This document shows positions 20,752 through 55,531 of a stretch of DNA of 64,000 bases, in pieces. Source of the DNA: Candidatus Peregrinibacteria bacterium GW2011_GWF2_39_17 (lineage in GTDB: Bacteria > Patescibacteriota > Gracilibacteria > UBA1369 > UBA12473). Made by a program: the position numbers and the translations under genes. The notes beneath the pieces were generated by a model, which made no database searches, was not told where the DNA came from, and saw nothing but the letters and a program-made list of their open reading frames with translations. The stretch spans positions 62,001 through 126,000 of the forward strand of contig LBWM01000005.1 in the NCBI GenBank assembly GCA_000993615.1, given 5' to 3'. The stretch's first letter is position 1. Each line of letters starts with the position of its first letter.

Positions 20752-23118
20752 CTAATACCCCTTATTTTCAATAATCTTCTCCAAAAAAGCCCGGGGATAA
20801 ATAGGCGTTTTTTCCGCTAAAGCTTGATGAAATAAAACAGTAGAAGGAGTTAAAGCCGGAGTCGTGTTTACCTCAATGACCTTAATTTTCCCGGTTTCAA
20901 TTTCCATAAAAGCATCAATACGCGCATAACCTTTAATCCCTACCCTTGAAGCAACTTTTTCAATTAACCCTTTTGTTTTTTCTAAAATTCCAGGCTTAAT
21001 GATAAATTCAAAAGGAGGTGTGATATTTACGCCGGTACCTCCTTGAAATTTCTCCTCCACGCTTAAAACCTGCCCTTCCGCTACGGTTAAACTTGGGCTT
21101 AAAGCCTTTAGAATTCCGTTTATTTCTAGTACTCCAACCGTGACCTCAATCCAACCGTTTTTAGGTGTCCATTTTAATTTATTTCCTCTTATCCTAAATT
21201 TATCAGTTTCAATAAATTGCTCAAAAAGCAGCCCCTTCATTGGATTAAGCGGCATTTCAATAATTCCACTTTGATTCTTAAAAGTACCCATTTTTATAAA
21301 TTGCACTCCACTCCCAGCTAAAGAAATATATTTCTCCAAATCTTTACTAGAGGACAAACGAACTACTCCGGAAGAACAACCATCAGCTCTCGGCTTAACA
21401 ATAATGGTTTTTGACTGTAGCTCTAAACAAAGTTTTTCCCAAAAATACTCAAAATCATTCCTTTTAAAATCCCTAAGCAACCTCAATAAAACTACTTTTT
21501 GTGGTATAATTTGGATCCATTTTGCATCCAAATTCTTCAAAGCCTGAATAGTTTTATATTTATCCATACAAAGCGCCGAAGCTTTTTCTTCAGACCCATT
21601 GAAAATAATTTTTTGTCGACCCAAAAGCCTCTGTAAAGTCCCATCCTCACCAATCCCGCCGTGCAAACCGATAAATACAAATTCGGATTGCCTAATAAAA
21701 AATTCTAAAGTCATTTTTTGTGGCAAGAAAAAAGATTCTGAAGCCTCATCCTCTGTCAAGAACAATCGCCAACGCACCTTAGAGACTAAATCAGAAAGTT
21801 TTTTTTCATTTTTTTTTGCACCACGGCAATTCTCGTAAATTTCCTCCACCGTATGATTAAGAGTCAAAGCATACGGCAAAGACCATACTGCTCCATGCAA
21901 ATCAAGTAAAAAAGGACGCGGTTCATATTTTTTTGATTGCCTTAACTTAAGCCACGCATTCGTCCCACTCATTAATGAAACCTGCCTCTCTGCTGTATTG
22001 CCGCCAAAAAGGACATTAATCGGTTTACGCTTCTTATTTAAATCACTAAAAAATTCCTGGGGAAAAAGACTATAACGACGACAGGCATTTTTCACAATAA
22101 AACGCAAAAGATTGCGGTGACTCATTCCAATCCGAGAGGCCTGCTGAAACAAAAAACTATTTTGCTCCATGCCGCTAATCGGGTTAAAATCCGAAAACCA
22201 AATTTTACCATCAGGTAACAGCCAACCATCAAATCTCGCAAAATCGCGCATCCCCAAAACTGAAAACAATTGCTCAGCCTGAACCTGTATACGTTCAATG
22301 GTATTGTTATCAAAACGAGGGGGACAATGATAACGAACCTGACGAGTTGGTAAGTATTTTTTTCTAAAATCAAAAATTTGATGTTCCGTATAATCAGCCT
22401 CAATTTCAGTAGGTAAAACCGCCACCGGCATTCCAAATTTATTTTGAAGCAGGATCACCGTAAATTCAATCCCCTCACAAAAAGGCTCAAGCACTAGTCG
22501 AGTATCCATTCTCTTTGAAAAAAGCAATTTAGCCTTTTCCAAAGCCTCCGATGCTGTTCCCACCGAAAAAACCCCAATACTTGACCCCCCTGTTGCCGGT
22601 TTAATAATAGCCCTTTTTAGATTATGTTTTTTAAAAAAATTATTAATAATTTTCTCGTGGTCGTTACGAAAAATTTTTAAAACCGCGGAAGGCAAAGCAA
22701 AAAACCCTTGCGACCTAATAAATTCATTAGCCTCAAATTTATCAGAACAACGCCTACAAGCTTCAACTCCCGACCCCACATACGGAACTCGATAGCGTTC
22801 TAAAAGACGCTGAACCCCGCCATCCTCACCAAATTGACCATGCATTACCGGAAAAGCCAAATCAACTTCCTTAAAAAGATCCTTTAAAGCTCGCGAACTA
22901 AGGAATTTACCGGTTTGCTGTAACTTAAAATCAAAATCCGAAGGCGTATTAGAATATAATTGTTTTACCTGCAAGCGATAAGGTCTTTTTTTATGATCAA
23001 AATAAAGAGGCACAATTTCTATACCTTCATCCCCTAAATGATCCAAAATAGATCGCGCTGAATTAAGAGAAATACCACGTTCTAAGGAAGGCCCGCCACA
23101 AATCAATAAAATTTTCAT
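20752..23118 (-). CDS. ddl: Tandem D-alanine-D-alanine ligase (two Ddl modules fused)
   Basis: A 788-residue protein with two ATP-grasp ligase modules. Ddl is normally about 300-360 residues and makes D-Ala-D-Ala for peptidoglycan. Module 1 (about 1-350) has MHGQFGEDGGVQRLLE, IIKPATGGSSIGV and DFNPISGM. Module 2 (about 360-788) has LHGGIGEDGTLQRLLG, IVKPRADGCSSGV and IEVNTTPALTP. Module 2 keeps the usual E-V-N metal-binding triad; module 1 has D-F-N there and may have drifted. Each module has its own N-terminal Rossmann-like start (LLICGGPSLERGIS and VLFGGNTAERQVS). It may make a peptide other than D-Ala-D-Ala, or one module may be regulatory. rsmG converges from the other side. Confidence 0.88.
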   Translation of the reverse strand: MKILLICGGPSLERGISLNSARSILDHLGDEGIEIVPLYFDHKKRPYRLQVKQLYSNTPSDFDFKLQQTGKFLSSRALKDLFKEVDLAFPVMHGQFGEDGGVQRLLERYRVPYVGSGVEACRRCSDKFEANEFIRSQGFFALPSAVLKIFRNDHEKIINNFFKKHNLKRAIIKPATGGSSIGVFSVGTASEALEKAKLLFSKRMDTRLVLEPFCEGIEFTVILLQNKFGMPVAVLPTEIEADYTEHQIFDFRKKYLPTRQVRYHCPPRFDNNTIERIQVQAEQLFSVLGMRDFARFDGWLLPDGKIWFSDFNPISGMEQNSFLFQQASRIGMSHRNLLRFIVKNACRRYSLFPQEFFSDLNKKRKPINVLFGGNTAERQVSLMSGTNAWLKLRQSKKYEPRPFLLDLHGAVWSLPYALTLNHTVEEIYENCRGAKKNEKKLSDLVSKVRWRLFLTEDEASESFFLPQKMTLEFFIRQSEFVFIGLHGGIGEDGTLQRLLGRQKIIFNGSEEKASALCMDKYKTIQALKNLDAKWIQIIPQKVVLLRLLRDFKRNDFEYFWEKLCLELQSKTIIVKPRADGCSSGVVRLSSSKDLEKYISLAGSGVQFIKMGTFKNQSGIIEMPLNPMKGLLFEQFIETDKFRIRGNKLKWTPKNGWIEVTVGVLEINGILKALSPSLTVAEGQVLSVEEKFQGGTGVNITPPFEFIIKPGILEKTKGLIEKVASRVGIKGYARIDAFMEIETGKIKVIEVNTTPALTPSTVLFHQALAEKTPIYPRAFLEKIIENKGY

Positions 23119-29025: not shown

Positions 29026-31290
29026 TTAATCCTGAACTGCAATTACAACACTATAACTATCCGTAATACCTTCATTATCCTCTACGGTTAGAACTACTGT
29101 ATAAGTTCCTGCTTTTTCAAAAGTATGAGTAGGTTTTCTAGTATAACTAAGATTGCCATCCCCAAAATCCCAGCGATAAGTCATTACCGTACCGCTAGAA
29201 CACCCCGGATTAAAAGTCACAATTAAAGGCGCTTTCCCGGAGTCTACATTGGATTCAAAACAAGCACTCAATGAAACTGGCAATACATTAATAAACAAAG
29301 AAGCAGTAGTTTCCTTTCCATCTGACGCAATGGCCTTAACTACAACAGTAAATGTCCCTACTTCATTAAACGTATAACTAACTTGAGCATCATCATACCT
29401 GGTTATCCCATTACCAAAATCCCATAAATAATTAACTATTTTCCCAGAAGGATAGCTAGAACCAGAAGCATCAAAATTAACTATTAAAGGAATCTCACCA
29501 TTTAAGGTATCAGCTGTAATTGAAGCTACTAAACTTTGTTCCTCTACTGTAACGCCAATGCTAGTTTTAGTAACATTTCCACTTGCATCTTCAACCGATA
29601 AAGTAGCGACATATTCCCCTGCCTTTTGATAAGTATACTCAAAATCAATCCCTGCCCCGTCAACTACACCATCTCCATCAATATCCCATCCATAATCCAC
29701 AATATTATTATCAGGATCCAAACTATCCTCAGCTGAAAATTTTACACTAAACGGTACCTCACCGGTAATACTAGTGCGCTGTTCATCATCCCAAACATGA
29801 TTTGTGGTTATAATAGCTACCGAAGCAGATTCCGGACTTTCGACCTTAATTTCCAAACTAACCTCCCCAATAGCTTGTTCCTCATCAGTCATTTTTAAAA
29901 CCACCGTATAAGTCCCAGGCATATCATAAACATGTTGTGCATTTTTATTTCTAGTTACTACTGTCCCATCTCCAAAATCCCATTCGTATTTTTCAATCGC
30001 TCCATTAGGACTACTAGCCCCTTTTGGTTCAAAAAAATAAGATTTTCCTGGATAAAGAATGTTTCCCGATTCATAGGCAAAATTAATCGAAGCAACAGGC
30101 TTAGCATCCTCTTTAACCACTATATCTTTAGTTGCCACACTACTATCTTTATTATTATCTGTTACCCGTAGTTTAACCGTATAAGTTCCGAATTTAGAAT
30201 AAGTATAATCCACAAAAACCCCATCCGCATCACCATAATTCCCATCCCCATTCAAATCCCAATCATAACTCTCGATTTCTCCGTCTGGATCAACACTTTG
30301 GGAAGCATCAAAATGAACCACCAAAGGAATTGCCCCTGTTTCCGGTGTAGCAGTAAAAAACGCATTAACTTTTTCATTCACAAAAACCACATCAACCATA
30401 AAACTCTCTTTGGCTTCTTCACTAGTTTTATTATCACGATAGGTCACTACTAACGTCACTAAATATCGCCCATCCGCTTCTCCCTTTCCCAAGTAACGGT
30501 GAGAAACTACTGATCCAGTAGCCGTACTACCATCTCCAAAATCCCAAAAATAAGAAATAATAGTTACCCGAAGAGGATCAACTGGTAATTTGGAAGCGTC
30601 AAATTCAATCACGGCCGGGGCAGTAAGATTTGTAGTGTTTCTAGGAGTAGTCACAATGTATTCTACTGTCCCTTGACTTTCAGTAGCATACTGCGCTTTT
30701 TTTTGCTGCAAATAAAAATACGAAGCAGCCCAAACCATAGCAAAAAACATAAAACAAATTAAACCCACAATCAGCAACATTATTCCCTTTTTTTTCCCTT
30801 CCTTATTATCCCTTTTAGCCATAGCCGTCATGAAAGCCCCGATCACAGCCAAGATAAAAGAAATAAACACAAAAAGACCAAAAAACAAATTAGCAATATT
30901 GATTAAAAAAGGATAAAGCTGCTCTTCTGAAAGACCAAAAAGTTGGAGCAACGGATTACTTCCTCCCCCTTGACTTAACATGAAAAAAGCCAACGCAAAC
31001 ACCAAAAAAAACACAAATAAAATTGCCCCCAAAAGCACAAAAAGTAACTTCTTTTTTTTCTTATGATCCTTAATTTCCTTTTGTTGAGCCTTAACCTGAT
31101 CATTACCTTGATTTACCTGCCCGGACTGTGGTGCTGACTGCCCGGACTGCACTGGCTGAACCATGGGTCCTGACTGTTGCCCTGGTTGGACAGGTTGCCC
31201 TGGTTGGACAGGTTGCCCTGGTTGGACAATCGGATTTAATCCTGGAGTATGATTTTCTGGAACATCATCAGCATGTTGGGAGGAATCCAT
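29026..31290 (-). CDS. Membrane-anchored protein with six PKD repeats
   Basis: A 754-residue protein. Residues ~10-75 are Gln/Pro/Gly-rich and partly built from a six-residue repeat. Three hydrophobic segments follow (about 90-215). The remainder is six PKD-type Ig-like domains, each with WDFGDG-like and YTVVLTVED-like strands and separated by short linkers; some carry Asp-rich DxDGDG loops that may bind calcium. The layout implies cytoplasmic or membrane anchoring with a long extracellular stalk. PKD domains usually mediate adhesion or spacing. It lies downstream of the giant PKD protein on the same strand and may belong to the same surface structure. Confidence 0.8.
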   Translation of the reverse strand: MDSSQHADDVPENHTPGLNPIVQPGQPVQPGQPVQPGQQSGPMVQPVQSGQSAPQSGQVNQGNDQVKAQQKEIKDHKKKKKLLFVLLGAILFVFFLVFALAFFMLSQGGGSNPLLQLFGLSEEQLYPFLINIANLFFGLFVFISFILAVIGAFMTAMAKRDNKEGKKKGIMLLIVGLICFMFFAMVWAASYFYLQQKKAQYATESQGTVEYIVTTPRNTTNLTAPAVIEFDASKLPVDPLRVTIISYFWDFGDGSTATGSVVSHRYLGKGEADGRYLVTLVVTYRDNKTSEEAKESFMVDVVFVNEKVNAFFTATPETGAIPLVVHFDASQSVDPDGEIESYDWDLNGDGNYGDADGVFVDYTYSKFGTYTVKLRVTDNNKDSSVATKDIVVKEDAKPVASINFAYESGNILYPGKSYFFEPKGASSPNGAIEKYEWDFGDGTVVTRNKNAQHVYDMPGTYTVVLKMTDEEQAIGEVSLEIKVESPESASVAIITTNHVWDDEQRTSITGEVPFSVKFSAEDSLDPDNNIVDYGWDIDGDGVVDGAGIDFEYTYQKAGEYVATLSVEDASGNVTKTSIGVTVEEQSLVASITADTLNGEIPLIVNFDASGSSYPSGKIVNYLWDFGNGITRYDDAQVSYTFNEVGTFTVVVKAIASDGKETTASLFINVLPVSLSACFESNVDSGKAPLIVTFNPGCSSGTVMTYRWDFGDGNLSYTRKPTHTFEKAGTYTVVLTVEDNEGITDSYSVVIAVQD
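31179..31228. repeat. 18-bp coding tandem repeat
   Basis: About 2.8 exact copies of an 18-base unit start at 31179, 31197 and 31215. They encode the repeating PGQPVQ in the N-terminal linker of the PKD protein. Such repeats can change copy number by slippage. Confidence 0.9.
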
Positions 31291-31343
31291 TGTTAAATAA
31301 AGTTAATAGATAGGAGGCAATGTTTATTTTTAAATGCAAATTA

Positions 31344-34300
31344 CTAATTGTCAAATTCATCGTTAACTTCCTTCCTGGCATAAAGACGAGAACCCAAAAT
31401 AGCAAACCCCAATGCCGTTACTAGAATATAAATAGCTTCCAAATTAGTAACAGGCAACAAACTAGTTGAAACAGCAGTCTGATCAGCATCAAAAACCACT
31501 TCCTTCGTCACCTTAACAGTCCTCTTATTAGCATCCGTTACAATCAACTGTACCACTACCAACCCCCAGTCTTTACTAAAATCTGTTGTATAATTTCCAG
31601 CCGATGTCGCCTCATGATTACAATCATCCTGCGTTTTACCATTTCCATCACTATCAAAATAAACATTTTTATCAATACAATATTGAACACCCTCAACCAC
31701 TCCCTTAACACTATAATTAAATGTAATATTCCCGGAAGAACCCTTAATATGAATTTTCCCATCCTTAGGGTCAGCTGCTGGGTTCGATTGTAAATAAGCC
31801 TCAAAATCTTCCTCTTTGGGCTCTACTAATTGGATGGTTTGAACAACCTCATCACTTCTCCCTAAGCTATCAGTAATCGTTAATTTAACCTGATGACTAC
31901 CATAATCAGTGTAAGTATGAACTGGATTTTCACCAGTTTCATCCTGATCATCACTTCGATTACCATTGCCGTCACTATCCTTAACTAAATCAAAATCCCA
32001 TTTATAAACTTCAATAGTCACTTCAGTTCCCGCATTTACCTTAGAATTATTTTTAAAAGTAACCTCTTTATCCTTAATAGTATAAGAAAATGCTCCTTCC
32101 GGAGGATCACTTTCATCCAAAACAACACTACGCAACACCTCATCTGTATTCCCTTCATTATCAATCACCACTAACCTAACCTTATAAGTCCCATAAATTT
32201 CGTAACTACGTGTTGGATTTTTTTCAACAGAATCAACATCATCATCATTAATTCCATTTCCATCAGAATCCAAGCTAGTGTCAAAATCCCATTGATAAAT
32301 CGCCAAAGAAGCTCCATTAGCTTCATCGGCCTTAGAATTATCCGTAAATTGGACTGTTAGATTTTTAAAATCATAGACAAAAGCGGCCTCTGGATCCTTA
32401 GTTAAACTGTCCACATAGATCCGAATCGGATTAGAAACCGCAGTTGCAGCACCATCATCAATAATCTTTAAACGAACCTCAACTCCTTGCGGCGCAGCTT
32501 TTTCAAAAACATAAGTCTTACTAGAATCAGTTGTTGCCTCGTTATTATAAAATCCATCTCCTTCAAAATCCCAGATGTATTGCACTACTCGCCCATCTTT
32601 ATCAGATGAGGTACTAGTGAAATTAACTGTTTCGCCTACTAAAATATTTACTCGATCTACTGTCAAGCTAGCAGTTGGCGGCTGATTTGGGCCATTTTGA
32701 ACTTCCAAGACCGGGATTTGGCTAACAGGCAAAAGATCATCTGAACTTGAAACACTATTTTCATTATCAGCAACCTCAACTCCAAACGCATAGCGTTTTG
32801 ATTCCCCAGTTATCCCACTAGTATTTACGGTCATAAATACGACATTAGATAAGGAAATCTGGGTATCAATTTTCTCACTGGAATTATTAACATCATAGTA
32901 CCAAAACTTATAATTTGCGATGGCTCCATCCGGATCATCAGCATTAACTTCAAGCTTAACCGTAAGAGGGGTAACTAATTGATCGCCCTGCGGTTTCACC
33001 GTTAATCCATAAATTTCTGGCGCCAAAGCAGTAATATTCAGCTTTACCGTACTATTCGTATTTAAAGAATGATCTTTTTCTGATTGAACAGTTAAAGTAA
33101 CTGTAAATTGCCCCGTTTCCTTGAAAATATGAGTCACTTCCGACCCTGTAGCTAATGTCCCATCGCCTAAATCCCAACTAAAATTTTTGCGTGGCAAAGA
33201 AGTACCATCCAAGTCAACAGATTCCGACGCATCAAATTTAAAAACTCCCTTGCGATTACCCTCAATCTCAATTTCATTATAGGACTGAATTGCCTCATCT
33301 AAGGTTATCTTAATAACTGGGATAGGAGCCGTACCATTCCCCACATACACATTGTGAATCGCCAAATTATATTCATTATTATTATCATAAACCATAACCT
33401 CAACTGGATAAGTCCCCGCTTGATTATAAATATGCTCAACTGTCTGACTACCACCTGCAAGGGTCTGAACCCCAGTAGCATCTTTCCAATCAATTTCATA
33501 AGCCGTACCATACTCACTTTCCAACTGAAGAGTTACCTCGGCCTCATTATTTTCACTTAAAAAAGAAACTCCTTGTCCTTTTGTCTCCACCGTTAAACCC
33601 AAAACCGAATTAACCGTAAGCTCTTTCTCATAATCAGTACTTTGTTTCAAAGGTTCCTCATATTGATCATTCACAGTTAGAAGCACCTTATAATCACCCT
33701 TATTCTTAAAATCAACCACTGCCTTTTTACTACTGACAGAAGTGTTTTCAACAAATTCATAATCTTTTCCTTCCTCTCCATTAATTGTCCATAAATAGCT
33801 TATCGTATCACCTTTATCAGGATCATAACTTTTCGAGGCATCTAAATAAACTCTCCCCGGCATCGTAGGATCAGGTAAAACATAGGTAAAACTAGCTACT
33901 GGTGGAGTTGAATTAATCACAATATTCAAAAAAGTATCGTCAGATTGGGGCAAACTATCAGTAACTTTTACCCTAACTATATATTCACCAGGTTCAGTAA
34001 AAACATAATTAAGCTCTTCCAACCGATCACCTTCCTCGGTATGAACAACATTACTACCCTTTTCAATGCTCCATTCATAATAATTAATATTCCCATTATC
34101 CGTTACAGAGCCAGAAGCATCAAAAGCCAATTCATCTCCGATTTCACCTTTAATTTTGGAAGCTTCAAGATAAGCAGCCGGTGAAGCCACCTTAAGCGTT
34201 ACTATTTTCCGATCAGTTACCCCATTTTGATCTGTAACCTCCAATTGAAATTTATAAACTCCTTCCTTTGTATAATAATGAGTAGCTACTGGATTTTCTC

Positions 34301-36059
34301 CATCCTGCGAATCTCCATCACCAAAATCAAATTTATAATTTACAATTGTCGTCTGCACCCCATTCCCATCCGTAGTAGCACTGGCATCAAACACAATTCC
34401 TTCCTTAGCTTGCAAACCAGTTACAGTCCATTCATTAGATTCGCTATTAACCGTAGCCCCGGAGGTAGTTTTAGCCTCCAAAACAATAATGGAAGAAGGA
34501 GGATTAACCTTAATACTTAAATAACTAATTCCAGCCGCTATATTTTGAGGATCATTACTAATAACACGTAAACCCACTCGATAAGTACCCGGATTTTCAT
34601 AAGTATAAAAAACATTTGGACCGAAAAGATCATCATTTCCCTGATTAAAACCATTTCCTAGCAAATCCCATTGATAATTTTCATTAAGGATTGTTAGGTT
34701 AGTCGGGTCAGAGGAATTAAGCGCATCAAAAGTAACTGTAACCGGGGCATTAGCCGTCGTGGTATTAGCCGTAATGACGGCTGTTGTAAATTGCAAATTT
34801 TTAACTAAATTATATAAATCATTTAATTGCGCCACTAAATCTCCAACCTGACGAGCTCCGCCAGGCGGAGTATCGTGCAAAGTCACTACCAGTTGCCCAT
34901 AACTGGTCAAAAACGGATATGTAGTTGTACTATAAGCAGCCGTATTCGCATAAATATCAAAACCAATGATAATTGAATCAAACAATTTATAAATTTCTGA
35001 ATTTTCCATAAAACTACCCTGTAATTCAATTAATTCAGTCTTAATTTGCACAACATCATCCTGATATTCCGAAAGAGCCGTAGTTGAAATATCATTCAAA
35101 TCAACGACTAATTCCTTCCCAATATGATAAGGATCAACCTCATCAGCATCAGCTGAAAGAGATTCATCTCCAGATTGAGCCGCCAATAAAACCTCTGCCT
35201 TTAGCCATTCATCAAAATTCGTCAAGGTCTTAACCTTATCATTAACCGAAAAAGCCAAATTACGTCGAATCGTTTGCAAAGCAGCATTGGTAATATCCGT
35301 TATGTTACTAAAGCTATCAACCTGCTTAAGAAGTAAATTAAATCCCTCTTCCATATCACTTAACCCGCTATCATCAAAAGCAGGAACTCCTCCTATAGCT
35401 GTCAAAATAGACATCACATTTACATAAATCGTGTAATCCTGAACATAATTTTCTGTTAATTTTTTAACCTGATTGGCAATTTGCTCCGACTGCATTGTGT
35501 CTAAACTCTGACTTGTAACGCCACCAGATGAATACAATCCGGAATTAGTATCTCCCCCCTTACTAGCAGCCCCAATTAAAGTATTGACCAAAGCATAAGA
35601 AATTAAAACAACCACAATGCCCATCACCGCATAAGTAATGCTTTTTTTACCTTTATCCGCTTTTTCTTGCTCTCCTCCAGCAGTTACATACATAAATCCG
35701 CCGTAAATGATCACTATTACTGCCGCTAGTCCCAAAAAGGACAAAATAAAATTGGTCACATTAACAATAAACTCTCTGGCAGAACTTGTTTGCGTAATTC
35801 CAGAAGCATAACCATCTTTCTCTGGTGGAGCAAAATCTCCCTGAAAATCAGTAAAACTAGTGGTAGCACCCTGTTGGCACTCCAAAAGGTCAGAACCTTC
35901 TAACCCATCACAAAGAGCTTCCTCCAATCCAGTATCAAATTCAATATTCATCTCCGCTTGAACTTTGGGAGCCAAAAATAAGCCAATTCCCCCCATCGCC
36001 AATAAGCTAATTAGGGCTATCCAGGCCAAAAATCGCTTCCAGAAGAGTGAATTTTTCAT
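31344..36059 (-). CDS. Giant surface protein: pilin-like module plus about ten PKD-like repeats
   Basis: A 1571-residue protein. A signal peptide or anchor (1-35, ending PKVQA) is followed by a two-helix module at about residues 94-165 (VTNFILSFLGLAAVIVIIYG, then a Gly/charged turn, then a second helix). The same module type occurs three times in each of the two upstream genes and resembles TrbC/VirB2 pilins. Residues ~170-400 are helical, and ~400-1490 carry about ten PKD-like domains, several with DSDGNG loops. A C-terminal hydrophobic segment (LEAIYILVTALGFAILGSRL) and a basic tail end the protein, like a simple membrane stop. It has its own promoter at 36088-36116. Confidence 0.8.
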   Translation of the reverse strand: MKNSLFWKRFLAWIALISLLAMGGIGLFLAPKVQAEMNIEFDTGLEEALCDGLEGSDLLECQQGATTSFTDFQGDFAPPEKDGYASGITQTSSAREFIVNVTNFILSFLGLAAVIVIIYGGFMYVTAGGEQEKADKGKKSITYAVMGIVVVLISYALVNTLIGAASKGGDTNSGLYSSGGVTSQSLDTMQSEQIANQVKKLTENYVQDYTIYVNVMSILTAIGGVPAFDDSGLSDMEEGFNLLLKQVDSFSNITDITNAALQTIRRNLAFSVNDKVKTLTNFDEWLKAEVLLAAQSGDESLSADADEVDPYHIGKELVVDLNDISTTALSEYQDDVVQIKTELIELQGSFMENSEIYKLFDSIIIGFDIYANTAAYSTTTYPFLTSYGQLVVTLHDTPPGGARQVGDLVAQLNDLYNLVKNLQFTTAVITANTTTANAPVTVTFDALNSSDPTNLTILNENYQWDLLGNGFNQGNDDLFGPNVFYTYENPGTYRVGLRVISNDPQNIAAGISYLSIKVNPPSSIIVLEAKTTSGATVNSESNEWTVTGLQAKEGIVFDASATTDGNGVQTTIVNYKFDFGDGDSQDGENPVATHYYTKEGVYKFQLEVTDQNGVTDRKIVTLKVASPAAYLEASKIKGEIGDELAFDASGSVTDNGNINYYEWSIEKGSNVVHTEEGDRLEELNYVFTEPGEYIVRVKVTDSLPQSDDTFLNIVINSTPPVASFTYVLPDPTMPGRVYLDASKSYDPDKGDTISYLWTINGEEGKDYEFVENTSVSSKKAVVDFKNKGDYKVLLTVNDQYEEPLKQSTDYEKELTVNSVLGLTVETKGQGVSFLSENNEAEVTLQLESEYGTAYEIDWKDATGVQTLAGGSQTVEHIYNQAGTYPVEVMVYDNNNEYNLAIHNVYVGNGTAPIPVIKITLDEAIQSYNEIEIEGNRKGVFKFDASESVDLDGTSLPRKNFSWDLGDGTLATGSEVTHIFKETGQFTVTLTVQSEKDHSLNTNSTVKLNITALAPEIYGLTVKPQGDQLVTPLTVKLEVNADDPDGAIANYKFWYYDVNNSSEKIDTQISLSNVVFMTVNTSGITGESKRYAFGVEVADNENSVSSSDDLLPVSQIPVLEVQNGPNQPPTASLTVDRVNILVGETVNFTSTSSDKDGRVVQYIWDFEGDGFYNNEATTDSSKTYVFEKAAPQGVEVRLKIIDDGAATAVSNPIRIYVDSLTKDPEAAFVYDFKNLTVQFTDNSKADEANGASLAIYQWDFDTSLDSDGNGINDDDVDSVEKNPTRSYEIYGTYKVRLVVIDNEGNTDEVLRSVVLDESDPPEGAFSYTIKDKEVTFKNNSKVNAGTEVTIEVYKWDFDLVKDSDGNGNRSDDQDETGENPVHTYTDYGSHQVKLTITDSLGRSDEVVQTIQLVEPKEEDFEAYLQSNPAADPKDGKIHIKGSSGNITFNYSVKGVVEGVQYCIDKNVYFDSDGNGKTQDDCNHEATSAGNYTTDFSKDWGLVVVQLIVTDANKRTVKVTKEVVFDADQTAVSTSLLPVTNLEAIYILVTALGFAILGSRLYARKEVNDEFDN

Positions 36060-36087
36060 GATTTAAAAGATGAAAATTTATCTAGTA

Positions 36088-36116
36088 ATTATACCAAAAA
36101 TAATCCTAAAAAACAA
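36088..36116 (-). promoter_or_regulatory. Promoter of the giant PKD gene
   Basis: On the minus strand TTGTTT (36116-36111) and TATAAT (36093-36088) are 17 bases apart, a near-consensus sigma70-type promoter 28 bases before the start at 36059. It suggests the PKD gene can be expressed apart from the pilin-module genes upstream. Confidence 0.7.
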
Positions 36117-36301
36117 GCACTATCTGCCCAAATTCACCGCCGAATGATGACCCAGATTCCCTATAATTTTCATAAACAAATTTCCGATACTCAGATATGA
36201 GCAGTAGACTAGGCCTCGACATTACAACTCCAGCTAACTAATTTGATAATGCAAGGATGAGTCAAAGCATAAAAAAACACCTCAAATTTATCAATGCGTA
36301 T

Positions 36302-37261
36302 TTATTGCGCCCCTTCAACCGGAATAACAGTAGAAACAATCGCAAATGCGGCTCCAGCCAAAGCAATCCCAATAATTGCCCCTAACATCATTTTTTTAGC
36401 CTTACCCGTCGATTCATCATTACCAAAATTCAAAATGTACAAAAATCCGGCATACACAAAAACTAACACCGAAATGACGCCAATCGTGGACACCAAGAAA
36501 TTCGACAATCCCACAATGATTTCACGGCCACGAGACACGTCGATTTCAGCCCCCTGATTTTTAAAGATCACATCCTTAATTAAAGTTTCCGAAAGCCCAA
36601 CTAAAACTAACCCGATAGCAGAAATATAAATTCTTTTTTTAGCATTATTAACTGCCTCCTCAGATCCAGCCGCCACCAAAATTTGAAACCCAGAATAAAC
36701 CAACATCAAAACCGCAATAGATCCCATAAATACCTCTACAAAAGTATAAATCCCCTTCAAAATTTGTGCCCCAGCCGTAGCATATTCCGCTGCTGATTGT
36801 TCATCTCTCAAAAACTCGCCCTCTTGTCCGAAAAAAGCCAATTTTACTGCTTCATCAGCCACAAAAACTAAAACCAAACCCATCAAAGCATACTTAAGAA
36901 AAGCTTTTTCTTTAGTAGTTTTATCCTCTGAATCCTTACCAGCGGTAATTAAAATTATTGCATTTATAATAATCATCAATACCGTAATGCTTCCCAAAAG
37001 ATACTTAATAAAATCAATTACGAAAAAAATTGCGCTAGTAATATTTTTAGCTCCTTCTCTAGTAGAAGCATCAGCATGAACCGTGGTCTCATAATTTTCA
37101 AGTTGAATTTTATCGCCCAAATTCTCTAAAACATCCTGATAATCCTCAGCCCTAACTATTTGATTTAGCCAAAGCAAAGCCGCCATCATCGCCACACAAA
37201 TGATTAATGATTTAAGCATTTTTCTAAGCCCTTCTAAGTTTTTTATTCCCGATTTAATCAT
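36302..37261 (-). CDS. Membrane protein with three tandem pilin-like two-helix modules (1)
   Basis: A 319-residue membrane protein. After an N-terminal signal or anchor it has three copies of a TrbC/VirB2-like unit: a helix with GSITVLMIIINAIIL (1), GSIAVLMLVYSGFQIL (2) or VISVLVFVYAGFLYIL (3), a short turn with Gly and charged residues, and a second hydrophobic helix. The third unit follows the motif DVSRGREIIVGLSNF, shared with the next gene. It is a paralogue of the 37286 gene, 24 bases away, and the two look like one operon. ATG 37261 is used; ATG 37219 is possible. It is probably a subunit of a membrane or pilus-like structure. Confidence 0.8.
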   Translation of the reverse strand: MIKSGIKNLEGLRKMLKSLIICVAMMAALLWLNQIVRAEDYQDVLENLGDKIQLENYETTVHADASTREGAKNITSAIFFVIDFIKYLLGSITVLMIIINAIILITAGKDSEDKTTKEKAFLKYALMGLVLVFVADEAVKLAFFGQEGEFLRDEQSAAEYATAGAQILKGIYTFVEVFMGSIAVLMLVYSGFQILVAAGSEEAVNNAKKRIYISAIGLVLVGLSETLIKDVIFKNQGAEIDVSRGREIIVGLSNFLVSTIGVISVLVFVYAGFLYILNFGNDESTGKAKKMMLGAIIGIALAGAAFAIVSTVIPVEGAQ

Positions 37262-37285
37262 TAAAAGTAAATTTATGAATAAGTC

Positions 37286-38227
37286 CTAAAAAACTCCGCT
37301 AATAAAGGTAGAAACAAGGGCAAATGCCCCATAAATAATCAATAAAGCCAACACCGAATTAAAAATAATTTTCTTAGCTTTCCCAGTCTTTTCCTCGTCA
37401 CCAAAGGCTGTCATGTACATCACACCGCCAATAATTAAAGCTAAAACAGCTAGAGGCGAAGCCCACGTCACAATAAAATTCGTGATTCCCACTATTTCCT
37501 GCAGCCCCCGGCTCACATCCAATTGAACAACAGCTTGCTGACCAGTAGCGGAGTAATCAGCCTGATTATAATCAACCTTAAAAAGGACCTGCTTAATAAT
37601 CACATCCGAAATCATCACTAAAAATAAAGCTAAAACACTATTCATTAAATTACGTTTTTCCGCATTAAGAGTCTCATCTGATTCACCAGAAGAAATCAAT
37701 TTGGCTCCGGACCGAATCATAAAAAGAACCGCGATGCTACCAATAATGTATTTTATAAAAGTAATGATAATCGTAACTTGATTGTCAAACAATTTAGCCC
37801 GATACCCAATTTCATATTCATTAGCCAAAAATCCACCATCCTGAAGATCCAAAATCTCAGCCAGGGGCCCAGCCACTGCAATTAAAACCAAACCAATTAA
37901 TCCCCAATAAAGATTTGAATTTTGCTTATTCACCACTTCCTCATTTTCTCCCTGAATAACCAACCGCAATCCAGAAATAACCATAAATAAAATCGCTACG
38001 GCCCCAATAATGTAGCGAAAATTACGCGCTATCTCCCATACTAAATTATAAGCTTTCTGCAAACCTTGCCCCTCCGGATCCGGCACGTCACCTAAACTTT
38101 CCGCGCTGGGTAAAGGCAAAAATCCGGCATACGAAACCGCAGGACGAATCAAAAAAAACAAAATTCCAGCTATAATTAGCATTCCGATAAATAAAAACCA
38201 GGTAAGAGCTTTTCGCTTTTTAGGCAT
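37286..38227 (-). CDS. Membrane protein with three tandem pilin-like two-helix modules (2)
   Basis: A 313-residue paralogue of the preceding gene, with a TM anchor at about 10-30 and three two-helix units (GAVAILFMVISGLRLV; GSIAVLFMIRSGAKLI; SPLAVLALIIGGVMYM). The motif DVSRGLQEIVGITNF comes before the third unit, as in the neighbour. Each unit has the TrbC/VirB2-like pattern of two helices joined by a Gly/charged turn (for example GDEEKTGKAKK). ATG 38227 is preferred to an upstream TTG at 38233. It is the first gene of the block and diverges from secE. Confidence 0.8.
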   Translation of the reverse strand: MPKKRKALTWFLFIGMLIIAGILFFLIRPAVSYAGFLPLPSAESLGDVPDPEGQGLQKAYNLVWEIARNFRYIIGAVAILFMVISGLRLVIQGENEEVVNKQNSNLYWGLIGLVLIAVAGPLAEILDLQDGGFLANEYEIGYRAKLFDNQVTIIITFIKYIIGSIAVLFMIRSGAKLISSGESDETLNAEKRNLMNSVLALFLVMISDVIIKQVLFKVDYNQADYSATGQQAVVQLDVSRGLQEIVGITNFIVTWASPLAVLALIIGGVMYMTAFGDEEKTGKAKKIIFNSVLALLIIYGAFALVSTFISGVF

Positions 38228-38444: not shown

Positions 38445-38660
38445 ATGAAAAAGCCCAATTCAGTCCATAAATATCTTGTAAACAGTGTTGAAGAACTACG
38501 CAAAGTAACCTGGCCAACCAAAGAACAAACCATCCAACTAACCATCATTGTTATTATTTTTAGTATTATTATTGCCTTCATTTTAGGGGTGCTCGATTTC
38601 GGATTTAACTACGGATTTAACACATTAATTAATCTCCTAACCAATGGCCAAACAAGCTAA
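38445..38660 (+). CDS. secE: Preprotein translocase subunit SecE
   Basis: SecE, 71 residues, clamps SecY in the Sec translocon. The conserved amphipathic stretch VEELRKVTWPTKEQTIQLT is followed by one transmembrane helix (TIIVIIFSIIIAFILGVLD). It is the short, single-TM bacterial form. Its end overlaps nusG by 17 bases, the classic secE-nusG arrangement. Confidence 0.95.
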   Translation: MKKPNSVHKYLVNSVEELRKVTWPTKEQTIQLTIIVIIFSIIIAFILGVLDFGFNYGFNTLINLLTNGQTS

Positions 38661-39189
38661 AAACACCGGTCGCAATTGGTATGTTATTCATACCTATTCC
38701 GGCTATGAACATGCCGTACGCGAAGCTTTGTTGCAACGCATCGAATCCATGAATATGCAGGATAAAATTTTTGATGTCGTTGTCCCCGAAGAAACACAAA
38801 TAGTGATCAAAAACGGAAAACCAAAAACGGAAAAAAAACGTCTTTTCCCAGGATATGTATTAGTTGACATGGATGTTAACGACGAATCATGGTATGTGGT
38901 ACGAAATACCCCAAATGTAACCGGCTTTGTCGGATCGGGCGTAATTCCGGTACCTGTTTCTGGCGAAGAATGGAAAGTTGTACGACGCCACATGGGAGAA
39001 ACTGACCCCAAATTCAAAATTGATTTCCAAACTAATGATCACGTAGTTATCTTAGATGGTCCATTTGCTAATTATGATGGCATTATCCAATCAATCGATA
39101 AAGAAAAAGGCAAAGTTAAAATCCTAATTACTATTTTTGGACGAGAAACTCCGGTGGAACTAGATTTTACTCAAATCAAAAAGAAATAA
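38644..39189 (+). CDS. nusG: Transcription termination/antitermination factor NusG
   Basis: NusG, 181 residues, binds RNA polymerase through its NGN domain and the ribosome or Rho through its KOW domain. Visible are WYVIHTYSGYEHAV, PGYVLVDMDV, NTPNVTGFVGSG, and the KOW part DHVVILDGPFANYDGIIQSI. The start overlaps secE. rplK, which normally follows, is one gene away. Confidence 0.96.
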   Translation: MAKQAKNTGRNWYVIHTYSGYEHAVREALLQRIESMNMQDKIFDVVVPEETQIVIKNGKPKTEKKRLFPGYVLVDMDVNDESWYVVRNTPNVTGFVGSGVIPVPVSGEEWKVVRRHMGETDPKFKIDFQTNDHVVILDGPFANYDGIIQSIDKEKGKVKILITIFGRETPVELDFTQIKKK

Positions 39190-39214: not shown

Positions 39215-39946
39215 ATGGCCTCTCCCATGCACAAATTTACGATTTTCACTATCATCTTTTCTGTCACTGTTATTTTTATAATGGCTGATTTAATTATAAA
39301 TGACTACTGGGGAAAAGATTTTGCTAATGAAAATCAACTTCAGGGAGATGCCGAAATCCCAACTGCTTTTACTCAAACCACAACCGCTATTACAAACGAA
39401 ACCACTCTCCCCTTGGAGGGCAATCCAACTGACAACACTCCTTCCAACTCAGAGCTTGAAAAGATGGACCAAATCGCCACAAATACCACCTTAGATGCAA
39501 CAAATACTCCAAACCCAGCCCCTTCCGCTCAAATAACCACGACCCTACTGCAAAACCTAAATATAACCTCTCCGCGACTAGAAACCGATAATTACGAAGG
39601 TCTAATTTATGGATTTTGGGATACCCAAAAAGCATTCAATTCCTATACTATTTTAAGACACAAAATATTCAGTGAAGATAATTATCTAAGCACAATTTAC
39701 GAAATTCAAACCCTAAATGAAATTGAAACCTTTAGCGCCTATCAAATTCTATACGATCTAGCCCAAAATTCTGCAACCGGAACTATAAACGAAACCAATA
39801 GCTACGGAAATGCTTCCTTCTATTTTAATCACAGCACCAAAACCAATACCGTTTTCCTAACCTTCCAAACTAAAAACACAATTTATGCACTAGAATATGC
39901 CCCAAATTATCACTCCTCCATGCGAGAATTAATCGAAAACCTTTAA
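39215..39946 (+). CDS. Membrane-anchored protein inserted between nusG and rplK
   Basis: An unrecognised 243-residue protein. A TM anchor (about 5-25, FTIFTIIFSVTVIFIMADLI) is followed by a Thr/Asn/Pro-rich linker and then a globular, presumably external domain with several Tyr and Phe residues and no Cys. ATG 39215 has a second in-frame ATG 12 bases downstream (39227). Position between nusG and rplK is unusual; the two ribosomal-operon partners are usually adjacent. It is on the same strand and probably co-transcribed. Confidence 0.65.
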   Translation: MASPMHKFTIFTIIFSVTVIFIMADLIINDYWGKDFANENQLQGDAEIPTAFTQTTTAITNETTLPLEGNPTDNTPSNSELEKMDQIATNTTLDATNTPNPAPSAQITTTLLQNLNITSPRLETDNYEGLIYGFWDTQKAFNSYTILRHKIFSEDNYLSTIYEIQTLNEIETFSAYQILYDLAQNSATGTINETNSYGNASFYFNHSTKTNTVFLTFQTKNTIYALEYAPNYHSSMRELIENL

Positions 39947-54417: not shown

Positions 54418-55116
54418 TTATTTCGCCCAATTTTTAGCTTTTAGAGCTTTAAAGGCAGCATCCTGCTCCGCATTTTGCTTACTTGAACCCTCGCCAGCAG
54501 CGATAAGTTCATCGCCGAAATAGACTCCCATTTTAAATTCTTTTTCATGATCAGGTCCATTTTCCTCAATAAGACGATATATTGGTGTACAACTAAGACG
54601 CTCTTGAGCAATTTCCTGCAATTTAGATTTTGAGTCAATATGCAATCCCTTTTCTAGGATATCCTCCAAATAAATGAGCACAAATTTATTAATAAATTTA
54701 TGTGAGATTTCATAACCATGATCCAGATAAACCGCCCCAATCAAGGCCTCAAACGTGTTAGCCAAAATATAATTTTTAGTACGCCCCCCAGATTTTTCTT
54801 CCCCATGGCTCAAAACTAAATAATTACCAAGATCGAGTTTTTTAGCCACGTGAGCCAGATGTGTCCCCTTAACCAAAGCAGATCGCCAATTAGTTAATTC
54901 GCCTTCATCATTAGGATAGTGTTTATATAAAAATTCTGTAACCACTAATTCCAAAACAGCATCACCTAAAAATTCCAAACGCTCATTGCTTTCGATTGAC
55001 CCCCTTGGAACCTCGTTAAGATAAGATTTATGAATAAAAACTGTCTGTAAAATTTCGTGATCAAGAAATTGAATCCCAATTTTTTCTTCCAATTGCTTAA
55101 AAACACTATTTTGCAT
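54418..55116 (-). CDS. rnc: Ribonuclease III
   Basis: RNase III, 232 residues, cuts double-stranded RNA in rRNA maturation. The catalytic signature is NERLEFLGDAVLELVVTEFL, with the acidic residues also present in the later DHGYEISHKFI region. The C-terminal dsRNA-binding domain includes SKLQEIAQERL and SSKQNAEQDAAFKAL. Its start overlaps nusB by 11 bases, forming an RNA-processing/antitermination pair. Confidence 0.95.
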   Translation of the reverse strand: MQNSVFKQLEEKIGIQFLDHEILQTVFIHKSYLNEVPRGSIESNERLEFLGDAVLELVVTEFLYKHYPNDEGELTNWRSALVKGTHLAHVAKKLDLGNYLVLSHGEEKSGGRTKNYILANTFEALIGAVYLDHGYEISHKFINKFVLIYLEDILEKGLHIDSKSKLQEIAQERLSCTPIYRLIEENGPDHEKEFKMGVYFGDELIAAGEGSSKQNAEQDAAFKALKAKNWAK

Positions 55117-55531
55117 AAGATTGAGGTTTATATTTTTTCATAACTGCACTTAGCACTCCGTTAATAAACTTCGCAGAATTTTCCGTACCTAAAGATTTAG
55201 CTATTTCAATTGCTTCATTAATAGCCACTATGGGAGGAACATCATCAGAAGCAATAATTTCATACACTCCCAATTCTAATATAACCCTATCCACTGGCGC
55301 AATTTTTTCAAATTCCCACTCCGGCGCCAATTCGGTAATAATATCCTGAATTTCTTCTCTTTTCGCCAAAATTCCTTTTAAGCTATTTTTGGCAAAATCC
55401 AAACTATCTAACTTAGGATGCAAATGACGTAAAATATAATCCAAAATAAAATCAGCCTCACCACCACGAAATTCCCAGGCAAATAGCGTTTGAACCACCG
55501 CGATACGGGACAAATGCCTATTACTGGACAT
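55106..55531 (-). CDS. nusB: Transcription antitermination protein NusB
   Basis: NusB, 141 residues, is an all-helical factor that acts with NusE in rRNA antitermination. The N-terminus SRIAVVQTLFAWEF and the C-terminal AINEAIEIAKSLGTENSAKFINGVL are typical. It is 26 bases downstream of rpmF and overlaps rnc. Confidence 0.92.
   Translation of the reverse strand: MSSNRHLSRIAVVQTLFAWEFRGGEADFILDYILRHLHPKLDSLDFAKNSLKGILAKREEIQDIITELAPEWEFEKIAPVDRVILELGVYEIIASDDVPPIVAINEAIEIAKSLGTENSAKFINGVLSAVMKKYKPQSYAK

Follow-up and report, generated by a model that had tools for sequence, protein, structure and literature searches.

A conserved cassette of fused pilin modules and PKD-repeat proteins in Gracilibacteria, a candidate cell-contact apparatus

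The window, meaning the whole 64,000-nucleotide stretch of Candidatus Peregrinibacteria bacterium GW2011_GWF2_39_17 DNA that was analysed, contains a cassette of four genes, here named A, B, C, and D, which are co-directional on the minus strand and divergent from nusG (Table 1). The ORF listing confirms the positions given in a sequence-only reading of the same DNA. Clear modules of the Pfam family T4SS_pilin (PF18895) number three in A, three in B, one in C, and none in D, and roughly seven transmembrane segments (TMs) are predicted for each of A and B when the signal segment is counted. That reading had also described a 754-residue TM-PKD protein, which is borne out in D, and about ten PKD repeats in the 1571-residue C, where the repeats are present and number nine by count. 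Near the cassette, a one-TM protein without a Pfam match is encoded between nusG and rplK (window 39215-39946) and is conserved in the Peregrinibacteria/Peribacteria order. Elsewhere in the window, a 788-aa protein (20752-23118) carries two N and two C domains of D-Ala-D-Ala ligase and is apparently a tandem fusion.

Table 1. Coordinates of the cassette and of related features in other loci. Positions without a locus prefix refer to the window; residues of A are numbered in its TTG-start form, which is two residues longer.
Feature	Position	Strand	Residues	Description
Gene A	37286..38227	-		313 aa; signal peptide-like N-terminus and three pilin modules
A module 1 (A1)	37850..38041	-	65-128	Charged-core type; module HMM 6.5e-21
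A module 2 (A2)	37583..37777	-	153-217	Charged-core type; module HMM
A module 3 (A3)	37301..37495	-	247-311	Canonical type; module HMM
Gene B	36302..37261	-		319 aa; paralogue of A; three pilin modules
B module 1 (B1)	36833..37030	-	78-143	Charged-core type; module HMM
B module 2 (B2)	36566..36760	-	168-232	Charged-core type; module HMM
B module 3 (B3)	36323..36517	-	249-313	Canonical type; module HMM
Gene C	31344..36059	-		1571 aa; signal peptide-like segment, one canonical pilin module, helical domain, nine PKD, C-terminal TM
C pilin module (C1)	35574..35768	-	98-162	Canonical type; module HMM E 6.6e-24; predicted hairpin
C predicted alpha-helical domain	34947..35513	-	183-371	pLDDT mostly 80-94, weaker at about 271-310
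C PKD repeats	31827..34784	-	426-1411	Nine repeats
Gene D	29026..31290	-		754 aa; Pro/Gln-rich N-terminus, three TMs, six PKD repeats
D PKD repeats	29035..30657	-		Six repeats
nusG	38644..39189	+		Divergent conserved neighbour; landmark, outside the cassette
Weak-pilin protein beside C	L197:13612-14547, L199:13385-14356, L220:6069-7091, L221:7413-8426			310-340 aa
Pilin-module giants without detected PKD	L207:4468-13308, L208:2634-13822, L209:4902-18178, L210:7260-15576

Pfam T4SS_pilin matches three stretches each in B (E 8e-19) and A (E 1e-18) and one stretch in C (E 4e-9), bearing out the three TrbC/VirB2-like modules that had been proposed for each paralogue and the single N-terminal module proposed for C. 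The PF18895 scores of A (67.4 bits), B (67.9 bits), and C (36.9 bits) all lie above the curated cut-off of 26.6, and A and B also exceed the cut-off of the Mbov_0395 ICE pilin-like model (NCBIfam NF045849). In a profile-profile comparison of the seven module families and the eight single pilins of this genome, all pairs reached P of at least 96% and E of at most 1e-9, so the similarity among module copies on which the sequence-only reading depended is significant throughout. Against these single pilins, C1 gave an hhalign E of 3e-24, and the best of them scored 102 bits to C1. The HMM used to gather the modules belongs to the same family, which called for a separate check of its specificity. 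All loci retrieved, some of them overlapping, together yielded more than 600 ORFs predicted to have two or more TMs, and only five of these fell between E 0.01 and 1. This clean separation indicates that the matches do not reflect hydrophobic composition.

The modules follow the order hydrophobic helix, charged loop, hydrophobic helix, with hairpins predicted in A and C, and an acidic-then-basic loop is conserved in all modules of the alignment. They depart from the pattern of one short pilin per gene with largely uncharged helices, as A and B are triple and their non-terminal modules are charged. A pilin module in D was considered and rejected, being represented by two weak matches only (E 0.004 in the window and 6e-4 in one relative). 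The motif DVSRG is present in both window proteins, as had been noted; in the alignments it is absent from orthologues and is not a conserved motif, and a functional role for it was rejected, only a weak D/G pattern being conserved.

Two kinds of module can be distinguished. In the consensus lines, A1, A2, B1, and B2 carry charged residues inside the hydrophobic helices, at module positions 9, 26, and about 58, and A3, B3, and C1 have essentially none. At least one acidic residue lies in the helix-2 core of 76-97% of A1, A2, B1, and B2 modules versus 0% of A3, B3, and C1. For this comparison, some of the same proteins went into the HMM and the alignment, and the helix boundaries were drawn by eye. 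In proteins from outside the order, a helix-2 acidic residue occurs in 64% of first and 55% of second modules versus 2% of third modules; for four-module proteins, the corresponding values are 60-80% in modules one to three and 0% in module four, and for single pilins from arrays 1%. Helix-1 charges are less clean, and about half of the array singles carry one. Among the triple proteins from outside the order, the best-matching HMM was A3/B3/C1-like for 43 of 44 third modules versus 3 of 88 others (Fisher p 6e-30, a value that takes no account of shared ancestry). The charged-core pattern is missing from partly fused array genes of other classes. Because their non-terminal modules are charged, A and B are not just concatenated bulk pilins; judged by their sequences, A/B-type proteins are a specialised design rather than pilin genes merely run together. 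The charge difference could instead reflect packing within the fused chain, not membrane residence.

The A protein matches all 59 order genomes searched, a few of them by weaker or partial matches only. In gene maps of 35 loci, among those listed, the A-B-C-D order is kept and usually runs divergently from nusG; the exceptions coincide with contig ends or split frames. In 44 loci from named records, A, B, and C occur together wherever the contig is long enough; these records are labelled Ca. Peregrinibacteria, Peribacteria, and in some cases Gracilibacteria or Patescibacteria, and one labelled Bacteroidetes is probably mislabelled. The A-B-C(-D) cassette is found, divergent from nusG, across the Peregrinibacteria/Peribacteria order, and the shared gene order that the proposal of a single assembly led one to expect among CPR relatives is conserved.

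Beyond the order, full-length A-like matches were absent from the phylum sample, and shorter multi-module matches were found elsewhere in the class. With the B profile, matches were obtained in 144 of 145 genomes of the class and in 110 of the 110 genera; because single modules contribute to these matches, the loci were also mapped gene by gene. The maps show adjacent 3+3 pairs in most of the out-of-order families covered, including lineages in which TGA is recoded. Family f144 has 4+4 modules, and the pair is less clear in families f148, f150, f152, f153, and f154. In family f143 (L220/L221), the arrangement A-B-single pilin-C(-D) lies beside nusG-rplK-rplA, which suggests that the cassette is older than the order. 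C and D lie away from A-B in family f17, and at several f18 and f146 loci the pair is near homologues of window 54421-55531, that is, rnc and nusB. Directly beside C in other Gracilibacteria orders, there is a protein with one weak pilin module (Table 1), which is absent from the window cassette.

AlphaFold2 models of moderate confidence show A as consecutive helical hairpins (pLDDT 77, pTM 0.54) and the C N-terminus as a signal-like helix, a pilin hairpin, the helical domain, and then beta structure (pLDDT 73, pTM 0.56). PDB searches with these two models returned nothing better than E 0.2, and a PDB search by sequence with the module profile gave no usable match; the D repeats match PKD domains of known structure from collagenases and from an S-layer protein. 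Against the CPR pilus model PamR (NF058578), C and D reach 41 and 37 bits in the PKD region only, below its cut-off of 300. C orthologues often end in a TM. Sortase anchoring of C was rejected, since the LPxTG-like signal LPVTN is found only in the window and in the nearest relative.

The statement in the sequence-only reading that VirB4 is missing holds for this 64,000-nt window, no VirB4 was found in the rest of the assembly either, and the cassette contains no ATPase, whether TraG or another of the T4SS. As a description of the lineage, it fails: VirB4 was found in 80 of 89 order genomes, where it passes the NCBIfam CD1110-family VirB4 model and is flanked by gyrA and gyrB, with no pilin genes nearby. 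Neither gyrA nor gyrB was found in this assembly (the gyrB search had no positive control in the same run), and because these flanks of VirB4 in relatives are missing too, the missing VirB4 is very likely a gap. The VirB4-less order genomes checked are part of the total, the remainder being less complete genomes: gyrA lies at a contig end in G004 and G032, a VirB4 fragment lies at a contig end in G062, and this genome (G000) and G015 have neither VirB4 nor gyrA. Absence of VirB4 from the lineage was rejected, as the checked absences coincide with contig ends or with a missing gyrA, and with VirB4 near-universal in the order, the implied independence from a T4SS is unsupported. Contigs were seen to break repeatedly at the gyrA-virB4 boundary (L193, L194, and L195, from G004, G032, and G062).

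PrgI/VirB3 is encoded in the same genome (C3:135133-135402; 51 bits, cut-off 27). The gene after PrgI is conserved in all eight loci examined and belongs to no Pfam family; by its position, it may be the TrsD-like gene of PMC12102498. The core genes are not clustered with virB4, as VirB4 lies at gyrA-gyrB and the cassette by nusG, and in the loci seen the cassette is never next to virB4. In other classes, we found pilin arrays near TrbL-like (6-8 TM), PrgI, and VirB4 genes. For Gracilibacteria, it has been reported that VirB6 is absent, that VirB3 and TrsD are mostly away from virB4, and that T4SS genes are dispersed (PMC12102498). In a saccharibacterium, epibiotic growth requires a T4SS that has six divergent pilins (PMC10633639, PMC12857230).

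Several readings of the cassette were weighed against these observations. It is rather unlikely that A, B, and C are true pilus subunits, with polypilins and single pilins building a T4SS-type filament whose tip is decorated or capped by the PKD arrays of C. In the F pilin, the termini lie outside the hairpin, a topology that would expose fused domains in such a filament; the C module and the third modules are canonical and close to the single pilins of the same genome, which has a five-gene single-pilin array plus singles. However, modules 1 and 2 of A and B have conserved charges in their hydrophobic helices, and extracting six linked TMs together would be difficult. A static envelope adhesion complex, in which pilin hairpins are borrowed as membrane anchors and which works without a T4SS ATPase, would agree with a cassette far from virB4 and free of ATPases, with the TM that often ends C, and with the three TMs of D. 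Related Vampirococcus has giant membrane proteins with adhesion-type domains (PMC8080830). We nevertheless consider such a complex unlikely: VirB4 is near-universal in the order, its checked absences fall at contig ends or where gyrA is missing, and dispersal of T4SS genes is itself reported for Gracilibacteria (PMC12102498).

The reported absence of VirB6 homologues in Gracilibacteria is the starting point for another reading, in which A and B are the lineage's VirB6 replacement, a polytopic inner-membrane platform from which the pilus grows. Their number of predicted TMs, signal segment included, and their charged membrane helices are consistent with this role, as is the 6-8 TM TrbL-like gene beside the array and PrgI in other classes. 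This replacement seems doubtful to us: A/B showed no similarity to VirB6 in sequence or fold, and the absence of VirB6 is taken from PMC12102498. We also regard as improbable that Gracilibacteria rebuilt the T4SS platform for pilus assembly, which is VirB6's job, from pilin, as two fused polypilins with charged non-terminal modules serving as membrane channel or platform and canonical terminal modules that seed or hold a pilus or stalk.

The reading that we favour, with moderate confidence, is that A and B are a membrane platform, C a pilin-anchored PKD stalk, and D an accessory stalk of a putative, dispersed T4SS-like contact apparatus. The topology would be N-out, with K-rich loops inside and linkers outside; by the positive-inside rule, the signal-like N-termini and K-rich loops would place the PKD arrays of C and D outside. 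The conserved charges in the non-terminal modules point to ion pairs that would retain A and B in the membrane as a hetero-oligomeric platform. The canonical third modules may dock with the C module, with single pilins, or with both, fixing the PKD stalk over the platform; as the modules most like free pilins, the terminal modules and the C module would be natural docking surfaces. VirB4 and PrgI, encoded elsewhere, probably belong to the same machine, given their co-occurrence in the lineage, and the machine may serve attachment to, or exchange with, another cell. That one module recurs singly and in triplicate across a conserved gene neighbourhood, the core of the sequence-only reading, is upheld by Pfam, profile comparison, and gene maps, and one envelope-spanning assembly is plausible. 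The suggestion of a short pilus is weakened for A and B, since four of their six modules carry charges in hydrophobic helices, unlike A3, B3, and C1.

The pilin family, the pilin arrays and T4SS of Patescibacteria, the essential saccharibacterial pilins, and the Vampirococcus PKD giants are known already. The Patescibacteria PF18895 arrays (PMC12102498) share with the cassette the two-helix module and many paralogous modules per neighbourhood. They are described there as 2-11 separate genes, whereas the cassette has three modules per chain with specialised non-terminal ones, and its neighbouring gene has PKD repeats, which the main text of PMC12102498 does not mention. Similarly, the T4SS of Ca. 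Southlakia epibionticum (PMC10633639, PMC12857230) links several divergent pilin modules to a Patescibacteria T4SS, but as six separate genes within the T4SS cluster, compared with the mostly 3+3 fused form of Gracilibacteria. The Mbov_0395 conjugal transfer protein of mycoplasma ICEs (NF045849), whose model A and B pass, corresponds to one 80-position module, here triplicated. The VirB6/TrbL platform is likewise polytopic and is encoded beside the pilin array in other classes; it has no detectable homology to A/B, which are pilin repeats. The Vampirococcus giants are likewise membrane proteins of very large size that contain PKD and further adhesion-type domains, and in the passages of PMC8080830 consulted we found no pilin module or polypilin neighbour described. 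Our searches of the open-access PMC literature returned no fused polypilins with specialised non-terminal modules, class-wide pairing, or adjacent pilin-headed PKD giant, and nothing on PKD with pilin in CPR or on RbmA-like proteins in Patescibacteria; the fused, charged-core architecture seems unreported there.

A major unanswered question is how Patescibacteria make contact with the cells on which they depend; in the one species examined by transposon sequencing, the T4SS and its pilins proved essential. For Gracilibacteria, in which VirB6 was previously not found and T4SS genes are scattered, a class-wide and nearly invariant design of two charged-core polypilins and a pilin-headed PKD giant offers recognisable machine parts. 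In these tiny uncultured bacteria, the cassette probably encodes the base in the membrane and the outer arm of a putative cell-contact machine, and it may show how a pilin turns into a membrane platform. Association of A, B, and C, and contact with VirB4, are testable predictions.

Other pilin-bearing loci were also recorded. A second array in the same genome consists of five tandem single-pilin genes downstream of a PilT-like ATPase (G000:C6:42779-45539, equivalent to L017:12780-15540), and further single pilins are located near PilB (C11), on C7, and on C4. Pilin arrays with two, three, or four fused modules and no charged-core pattern were seen in other classes at L204, L239, L244, L245, L255, and L256. 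A strict hexamer, in which six modules stand for six array pilins, was rejected: the number of modules in an array ranges from about 4 to 11, a 4+4 layout occurs in one family, and there is no one-to-one correspondence between array pilins and the six positions. In other Patescibacteria, giants of 1931-3302 aa with one pilin module and no PKD detected (Table 1) are paired with a pilin-headed protein of 640-850 aa.
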